Part shown: positions 1 through 1,908 of the stretch, piece after piece | Numbering within the stretch: position 1 is the first letter of the stretch | Layout of the letters: each line of letters starts with the position of its first letter | NCBI RefSeq assembly: GCF_018283645.1 | Contig: NZ_JAGSXH010000016.1 | Location: 1-64,000 of the forward strand | DNA: 64,000 nt | From: Actinocrinis puniceicyclus | GTDB lineage: Bacteria; Actinomycetota; Actinomycetes; Streptomycetales; Catenulisporaceae | Direction: 5' to 3' | Program-made: the position numbers and the translations under genes | The notes under the pieces: generated by a model | The model's input: only the letters and a program-made list of their open reading frames with translations | Database searches by the model: none | Told to the model about the DNA's origin: nothing

Positions 1-2
1 CC

Positions 3-64
3 CACGGCCACCCGACCTTTCTTCGATTCCTTAGAACAGATCCGAAGAATGCCAGGTGGCCGTG
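3..64. repeat. nested inverted repeat (possible element-end hairpin or terminator)
   Basis: Perfect outer arms CACGGCCACC (3-12) and GGTGGCCGTG (55-64) enclose inner arms TTCTTCG (19-25) and CGAAGAA (43-49). The surrounding 150 bases are clearly richer in A and T than the rest of the window. It could be the terminator of a gene lying to the left or an end structure of an integrated element. No gene is visible in 1-230. Confidence 0.5.
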
Positions 65-241
65 CCCGTTGTCAGGCGATCACACCACCACGCCACAAAA
101 GATCTTGTAGACCTCAAATCTCAAGCTCAGTTCGGGCCGGTTCACAGCGTTGCGTGAGCTGCATGAGCGGCGGCTAGGATGCTCCGGTCGTATGTGGTGC
201 AGCTCCAGCCGAGGGCCGGGGCCGTACGATGCGGGCGCGAG

Positions 242-283
242 TTTGGGAGCGGAAGGCCGTCGGTTCGAATCCGGCCACCCCGA
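242..283 (+). other. detached 3' half of a tRNA-Pro(TGG) gene; candidate attachment-site remnant
   Basis: From 242 the sequence reads exactly as the 3' half of a tRNA: a seven-base anticodon loop TTTGGGA (U33, anticodon TGG, G37), five bases of anticodon stem, a five-base variable region, a T-arm with loop TTCGAAT closed by GTCGG/CCGGC (one T-G pair), the acceptor strand CACCCCG and discriminator A283. CACCCCG-A is the usual 3' acceptor end of tRNA-Pro. The upstream DNA provides no matching anticodon stem, D-arm or 7-bp acceptor strand, so this is not a working tRNA. Such half genes are left at one end of elements that integrate into the 3' part of a tRNA gene. tRNA-Pro is a known target, for example of the Streptomyces element pSAM2. 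Confidence 0.6.
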
Positions 284-519
284 CGACGCCGGCTACGGAC
301 GGTTGGCGCGACGCCGGCCCGCGGCGCCATGTCGTGACCGGCCGCGATCTGCGCTTTTATCACCCCGTAGGGGTGCGCAAGGTACGATACCCAGCGCAAG
401 CGCGATGCGGCGTGCGTCCCGGTGCACCTACCGCCGCCGCAACGCTTCCGACACGGCGTGACCACACCCCGAGCGAGCGCTTGTTACCGATAAGTAGTCC
501 CAGCGAGGAGATCACAGCT
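284..519. other. tig upstream region
   Basis: No convincing gene. It holds a small perfect hairpin (CACCCC-GTA-GGGGTG, 361-375) and a TACGAT hexamer (383-388) that could be a -10 element for tig. The tig reading frame is open upstream through this stretch, but its composition and the ribosome-binding site at 506-511 argue that this part is not translated. Confidence 0.4.
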
Positions 520-1908
520 GTGAAGAGCGCCGTCGAGACCCTCGACCCCACGCGGGTCCGGCTCACCGTCGAGGTTCCCTTCGCCGAGCTCAAGCCCAGC
601 CTCGACACGGCGTACAAGAGGATCGCCGAGCAGGTGACCGTTCCGGGCTTCCGCAAGGGCAAGGTGCCGCCGCGCATCATCGACCAGCGCCTCGGGCGCG
701 GCGCGGTGCTGGAGGAGGCGATCAACTCCGCGCTGCCGGACCTGTACGGCCAGGCGGTGCAGGAGAACAGGCTGGAGGTCGTCGGCCGCCCCGAGGTCGA
801 GGTGACCGAGTTCGTCGACGGCGACCAGCTGAAGTTCACCGCCGAGGTGGACGTGCGCCCCGAGTTCGAGCTGCCCGACTACAAGGGCGTCGAGGTCCAG
901 GTGGACGACGTGGAGGTCTCCGACGCCGACGTGGACGAGCAGGTGCAGGCCCTGCGCAAGCGTTTCGGCACGCTCACCGGGGTCGAGCGCGCCGTGCAGG
1001 ACGGCGACTACGTGACCATCGACCTGCTCGCCACCATCGACGGCGAGGAGCTTGAGGACGGCACCGCCAGCGCGGTCTCCTACGAGGTCGGCTCCGAGAG
1101 CATGGTCGACGGCCTGGACGAGGCGATCATCGGCAAGAGCGCCGGGGAGAGCGCCGAGTTCGTCTCCACGCTGGTCGGCGGCGCGCACGCGGGCGAGCAG
1201 GCCGACATCAAGGTCACCGTCGGCGCGGTCAAGGCGCGCGAGCTGCCTGAACTGGACGACGAGTTCGCCCAGATGGCCAGCGAATTCGACACCCTGGAGG
1301 AGCTGCGCTCCGACGTGCGCTCGCGGCTGGAACGGGCCAGGAAGTTCGAGCAGGGCGCGCAGGCCCGTGACAAGGTGCTCGAGTCGGTGCTCACCCAGGT
1401 CGAGGTGCCGCTGCCGGCCAAGACCGTCGAGGCGGAGATCGCCTGGCGCAACGAGCAGCTCGACGAGCAGATCCAGCGGGCCGGGATGACCCGCGAGGGC
1501 TTCTTCAAGCTGCAGGACCAGGAACCCGAGGCGTTCGCCGCCGACCTGGACAAGCAGGTGCGCGACGGCATGAAGGCGCAGTTCGTCCTCGACCGGCTGG
1601 CCGACAAGGAGGAGCTGAGCGTCAACCAGGCCGAGCTGACCCAGCACCTGATCGAGCGCGCTTCCGGCTCGGGCCTGAGCCCGGACCAGTTCGCCAAGCA
1701 GGTGGTCGACTCCGGCCAGGTGCCGGCGCTGGTCGGCGAGGTGCGCCGCGGCAAGGCGCTGCGGCTGATCCTGGAGAACGCGCAGGTCAAGGACGCCTCC
1801 GGCAACACCGTCGACCTCTCCGAGCTGGACACCCCGACGTTGGGTGAGGGCCCGGACGCGTTCGGCCGCGAGCTCGGCGACGAGCACTACGGCCATGACC
1901 ACGCGTAA
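520..1908 (+). CDS. tig: trigger factor, ribosome-associated chaperone and prolyl isomerase
   Basis: 462 aa. Trigger factor docks on the large ribosomal subunit next to the exit tunnel and shields nascent chains. The N-terminal ribosome-binding domain carries the signature GFRKGKVPPRII near residue 45, followed by an FKBP-type isomerase domain (about 150-240) and a helical C-terminal chaperone domain ending in an acidic, His-rich tail. The GTG at 520 was chosen because a GAGGAG sits 8 bases upstream and translation from there begins directly with the family N-terminus. The gene lies just ahead of clpP1P2-clpX, a common chaperone/protease arrangement in actinobacteria. Confidence 0.95.
   Translation: MKSAVETLDPTRVRLTVEVPFAELKPSLDTAYKRIAEQVTVPGFRKGKVPPRIIDQRLGRGAVLEEAINSALPDLYGQAVQENRLEVVGRPEVEVTEFVDGDQLKFTAEVDVRPEFELPDYKGVEVQVDDVEVSDADVDEQVQALRKRFGTLTGVERAVQDGDYVTIDLLATIDGEELEDGTASAVSYEVGSESMVDGLDEAIIGKSAGESAEFVSTLVGGAHAGEQADIKVTVGAVKARELPELDDEFAQMASEFDTLEELRSDVRSRLERARKFEQGAQARDKVLESVLTQVEVPLPAKTVEAEIAWRNEQLDEQIQRAGMTREGFFKLQDQEPEAFAADLDKQVRDGMKAQFVLDRLADKEELSVNQAELTQHLIERASGSGLSPDQFAKQVVDSGQVPALVGEVRRGKALRLILENAQVKDASGNTVDLSELDTPTLGEGPDAFGRELGDEHYGHDHA

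Follow-up and report, generated by a model that had tools for sequence, protein, structure and literature searches.

A probable AICE remnant, with both attachment sites kept, at the tig-adjacent tRNA-Pro(TGG) gene

Why does half of a tRNA gene stand in front of tig, and how did it come to be there? The window analysed here, a stretch of 64,000 nucleotides, comprises bases 1-64000 of contig C77 in a draft genome of 430 contigs (G000), and its base 1 is therefore a contig end. A preliminary description, which came from only 290 bases of raw sequence, had read positions 242-283 as the 3' half of a tRNA-Pro(TGG) preceded by unrelated DNA, had interpreted the place as the end of an integrated pSAM2-type element and had predicted an intact tRNA-Pro at the other end, outside the window. 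Overall, the analysis bears out the observation and, with changes in the details, supports the substance of the interpretation. The left part of the window is now read as follows.

1-125: end "A" of a multi-copy IS with a putative transposase of the NF041680 family; inverted repeat ACCTCAAATCTCAAG at 111-125
3-64, minus strand: strong hairpin within the IS end, the palindrome noticed in the preliminary description (-41.4 kcal/mol, z -7.2)
126-130: CTCAG, the 5-bp IS target duplication, equal to the CTCAG at the C390 IS end
131-241: probable right end (111 bp) of an integrated element remnant, adjoining attR
242-284, plus strand: probable attR, the 3' half of tRNA-Pro(TGG), nonfunctional as a gene
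285-519: native tRNA-Pro/tig intergenic region, so assigned from its tig-proximal part, which resembles sister-genus tig upstream regions
520-1908, plus strand: tig (trigger factor), the native chromosomal neighbour, with 75% identity to a single match in each genome of the sister genus (g2)

The tRNA-like segment (window 242-284, 43 bp) extends from the anticodon loop onward, with the discriminator A at 283 and one extra base, common to both copies, at 284. ARAGORN found no tRNA in the window; on contig C390 it found an intact tRNA-Pro(TGG) (C390:33794-33868), close to the contig end and beside a tRNA-Gly(TCC), and this is the copy whose existence had been predicted. The half matches C390:33826-33868 with two mismatches (blastn E 3e-12), bearing out its assignment as a tRNA-Pro(TGG) 3' half, and both mismatches belong to a compensating C-G/G-C swap in one T-stem pair. 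The border of the identity is sharp: its first bases are those of the anticodon loop (TTTGGGA) and its last is the final base of the tRNA. A 5' half, full or decayed, was sought in the 111 bp before position 242, where the only likeness was a 12-mer with one mismatch. Among 5000 random chromosomal stretches, 728 scored as well, which puts this resemblance at chance level; the DNA before the half is unrelated, as had been claimed. No contig of G000 besides C390 and C77 carries the 43-bp segment. When phages and plasmids were searched for elements with the tRNA half, the matches were all below 95% identity and many lay in annotated tRNA genes; the same search of IMG/VR returned none. The possibility that the half copy is an assembly artefact was ruled out, because it sits 240 bp inside the contig and the assembly explains only the break at the IS.

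The arrangement in relatives indicates what the undisturbed site looked like. The order tRNA-Gly(TCC), tRNA-Pro(TGG), tig is contiguous in the sister-genus genomes G001 and G003, and no second half copy interrupts it in these two genomes or in the Streptomycetaceae loci checked (15/15). The colinearity of C390 with G003 extends to tRNA-Gly and tRNA-Pro and is continued by C77 on the tig side. Because these two flanks are contiguous in the sister genus, tRNA-Pro was parted from tig in G000 by an insertion. The same half gene in element-free relatives would speak against an integrated element, and the relatives checked have an intact tRNA just before tig instead. When the 394 genomes of the order were scanned for the 43-mer with up to three mismatches, two copies were present in G000 only; the other genomes had one copy (380) or none (13). 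Since a second 43-bp copy occurs in 0 of these 393 genomes, elements at the tRNA-Pro(TGG)/tig site appear to be rare. As a separate observation, a Catenulispora-like genus (g3) has its tRNA-Pro 13-39 kb from tig and its tRNA-Gly apart from tRNA-Pro and inverted relative to it (L122, L123, L124-L126); this layout of the three genes is a separate rearrangement.

The AT-rich, palindromic DNA at 1-150 had been taken for the edge of the element, but positions 1-125 proved to be one end of an NF041680-type IS inserted at a later time, and the element's own end lies at 131-241. The contig breaks at window base 1 because of this IS. The same sequence, over 127-130 bp, terminates contigs C127, C24 and C84, and the opposite IS end, with the same 15-bp inverted repeat, is found on C41, C32, C390, C114 and C387; the copy on C387 encodes the C-terminus of the NF041680 transposase (E 5e-35). 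The IS, with its 15-bp inverted repeat and CTNAG-like 5-bp target duplications, was observed at window 1-125, at L082:7225-7746 and on contigs C24, C32, C41, C77, C84, C114, C127, C387 and C390, and its copies explain several of the contig breaks in the draft genome.

The IS ends were paired by their target duplications, which match C24 with C114 (CTAAG) and C84 with C387 (CTTAA). For C127 the partner is C41, as G003 has gcvP contiguous with the genes of C41; an HTH protein on C127 was tried as a synteny marker and is not conserved in the relatives, and gcvP served instead. For the end of C77 (CTCAG), the candidates that remain are C390 and C32, which likewise have CTCAG. Because C390 and C77 are chromosomal neighbours in the relatives and their orientation is right, one IS most likely joins C390 to C77; we infer this join, and the free IS end of C32 has the same CTCAG. 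C32 was considered as the partner of C77, and the argument for excluding it, an interrupted permease-like frame, is weak, as Pfam did not recognise the frame. On the C390 side there is also a MITE-like repeat of 210 bp with terminal inverted repeats and CTCAG flanks. Copies of this repeat, with the ends AGGRCGTTTGGTCTGGTTTTGGGG, were noted at L011:15390-15599 and L009:131-342; it adjoins the IS at both places and has CTNAG flanks, and the repeat and the IS may have a common target preference.

If one IS joins the two contigs, the insert measures about 1.85 kb plus the IS: on C390 there are 1.73 kb from the intact tRNA to the IS, and on C77 the opposite IS end is reached 111 bp back from the half. 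The insert has a lower GC content than the chromosome (63.8% vs ~70%) and carries three small genes on one strand, DUF6941-DUF4258-DUF2283, whose products had zero matches with PADLOC and PHROGs. A tyrosine recombinase gene, which had been expected near one of the tRNA copies, is next to neither att site; none was detected in C390:33869-35598 or in window 131-241, and the stretch from the intact tRNA to the cassette yielded nothing convincing when searched for traces of an integrase. Neither a RepSA-type or other replication gene nor an FtsK-like Tra gene is present in the insert, where the three DUF genes are the only ones. The flanks contain no arm-type integrase-binding repeats like those of pSAM2 or pACPL, and no repeats common to both flanks. 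Because the reconstructed insert has no tyrosine recombinase gene, we regard it as a remnant and not as a complete element.

What kind of element the remnant came from is suggested by the relatives of its cassette. The only close relative in a GTDB-wide scan was in Streptomyces apocyni (L137:8007-9029), where the same three genes in the same order are followed by GntR, RepSA and a tyrosine integrase, the RepSA replication initiator being recognised by PF20199 (E 8e-153). This element is a pSAM2-family AICE; it is bounded by a 13-bp, att-like repeat located at the 3' end of a gene for a CAP protein. The first cassette gene and att are ~243 bp apart in the AICE of S. apocyni and ~245 bp apart here, with the MITE-like repeat and the IS excluded. 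The assignment to a pSAM2-type element is supported by the occurrence of the cassette genes on a pSAM2-family AICE, with the correction that the insert has no integrase of its own. The S. apocyni RepSA/GntR/integrase element as a whole is 7.6 kb long (L137:7751-15316) and lies between mutM and the CAP-protein gene. A distant DUF6941 relative was also found in a genome of the same class (G544), beside a DUF2283 gene and a tyrosine integrase.

We consider it likely that the locus holds a decayed AICE with attL and attR kept, CIME-like in character, which integrated at tRNA-Pro(TGG) and was later hit by the MITE-like repeat and the IS. The target would have been the one tRNA-Pro(TGG) gene, which lies between tRNA-Gly(TCC) and tig; an AICE-like element would have entered the 3' half of this gene by site-specific recombination, presumably catalysed by a tyrosine integrase. 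The integration would have preserved one complete tRNA (C390:33794-33868, attL), with an additional 3' half remaining as attR (window 242-284). The element may then have shed its integrase, replication and transfer genes, the lost part presumably being int-rep-tra, so that the DUF6941-DUF4258-DUF2283 cargo cassette and both att sites would be what remains. The MITE-like repeat and afterwards the NF041680-type IS would have inserted near the right end of the element, the IS breaking the assembly at window base 1. Against this model we count that there is no integrase gene at either att and that the flanks have no arm repeats.

A published case runs directly parallel to the 43-bp segment seen here: in the Actinoplanes AICE pACPL, a 43-nt att identity segment covers the 3' end of a tRNA-Pro gene (PMC3364876). 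The present locus resembles pSAM2-family AICEs in this pACPL segment and in the cargo cassette that the insert shares with the RepSA/integrase element of S. apocyni, and differs from them in that the reconstructed insert is without int, xis, repSA, tra and arm-type repeats. Tests for integrase, Rep, Tra and arm sites all came out negative, and for this reason we did not class the locus as an AICE. A cis-mobilizable element (CIME) keeps attL and attR and has lost the integration and transfer genes (PMC5704250). If a single IS joins C390 and C77, the insert is like a CIME in having both att sites and missing these genes, and CIME is then the better name; its centre differs in being broken by the IS and the assembly gap. 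Element traces at tRNA-Arg have been described in natural Streptomyces populations (PMC9513070), and there, too, a decayed element that lacks traB is flanked by direct repeats at a tRNA gene, whereas here the tRNA is tRNA-Pro beside tig and no accreted functional element was seen.

The small size of the insert depends on the single-IS join, and the alternative is a larger element, in which C390 and C77 end in two IS copies with other contigs between them, possibly carrying an integrase (e.g., C32), so that the site would hold a complete AICE or an accretion. The free IS end of C32 has the same CTCAG duplication and C32 ends in an integrase; the genome has 24 tyrosine-recombinase and 9 RepSA matches elsewhere, the latter all on other contigs; and accretion at tRNA sites is on record in Streptomyces (PMC9513070). 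However, one IS joins the flanks without added assumptions, in agreement with target duplication and orientation, the distance from the cassette to the right att equals that in S. apocyni, and the 43-bp segment is on no other contig. We regard the larger element as unlikely. The half copy might also be a decayed duplicate of the tRNA gene in which no recombinase was involved, as some likeness to a part of the tRNA 5' half is seen over 12 bp at 193-204. This reading is highly improbable, given the chance level of that resemblance, a 3' half intact to the base with its sharp border at the anticodon loop, and the foreign cargo cassette between the two copies. That the IS or the MITE-like repeat made the duplication on insertion is barely credible, although both are situated between the two copies, because their target duplications are only 5 bp (CTCAG), not 43 bp, and both lie at least 111 bp from the half copy.

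For the decayed AICE that we favour, the T-stem difference bears on where the crossover took place. The variant in the C390 copy is the sister-genus type (GGG/CCC), and that of the C77 half is found letter for letter in several Streptomycetaceae. The crossover of pSAM2 lies in the anticodon loop. Were it the same here, the C77 half would be native and the 3' half of the working tRNA would be supplied by the element. If, on the other hand, the host started out with the sister-genus variant, recombination would have taken place within the last 10 bp, close to the tRNA 3' end and outside the anticodon loop. We count the sister-genus variant on C390 as a further point against the model, since, if native, it would move the crossover away from that loop. 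Given sequences of element-free strains, the compensated T-stem difference would allow the crossover to be mapped. One could also imagine that the remnant still functions as a minimal cassette, which the integrase of another AICE in the host excises and moves via attL and attR, and that the only tRNA-Pro(TGG) of the host has an element-supplied 3' half with the compensated T stem; we think this quite doubtful.

A duplicate tRNA half is an ordinary, well-understood genomic scar and the mechanism behind it is textbook; what the locus adds is that tRNA-Pro(TGG), next to tig, probably harbours the remains of an AICE. Separately, a very long RHS-repeat-like frame (~3800 aa) was noticed at L079:1230-12701, with a tyrosine integrase behind it where the contig ends.
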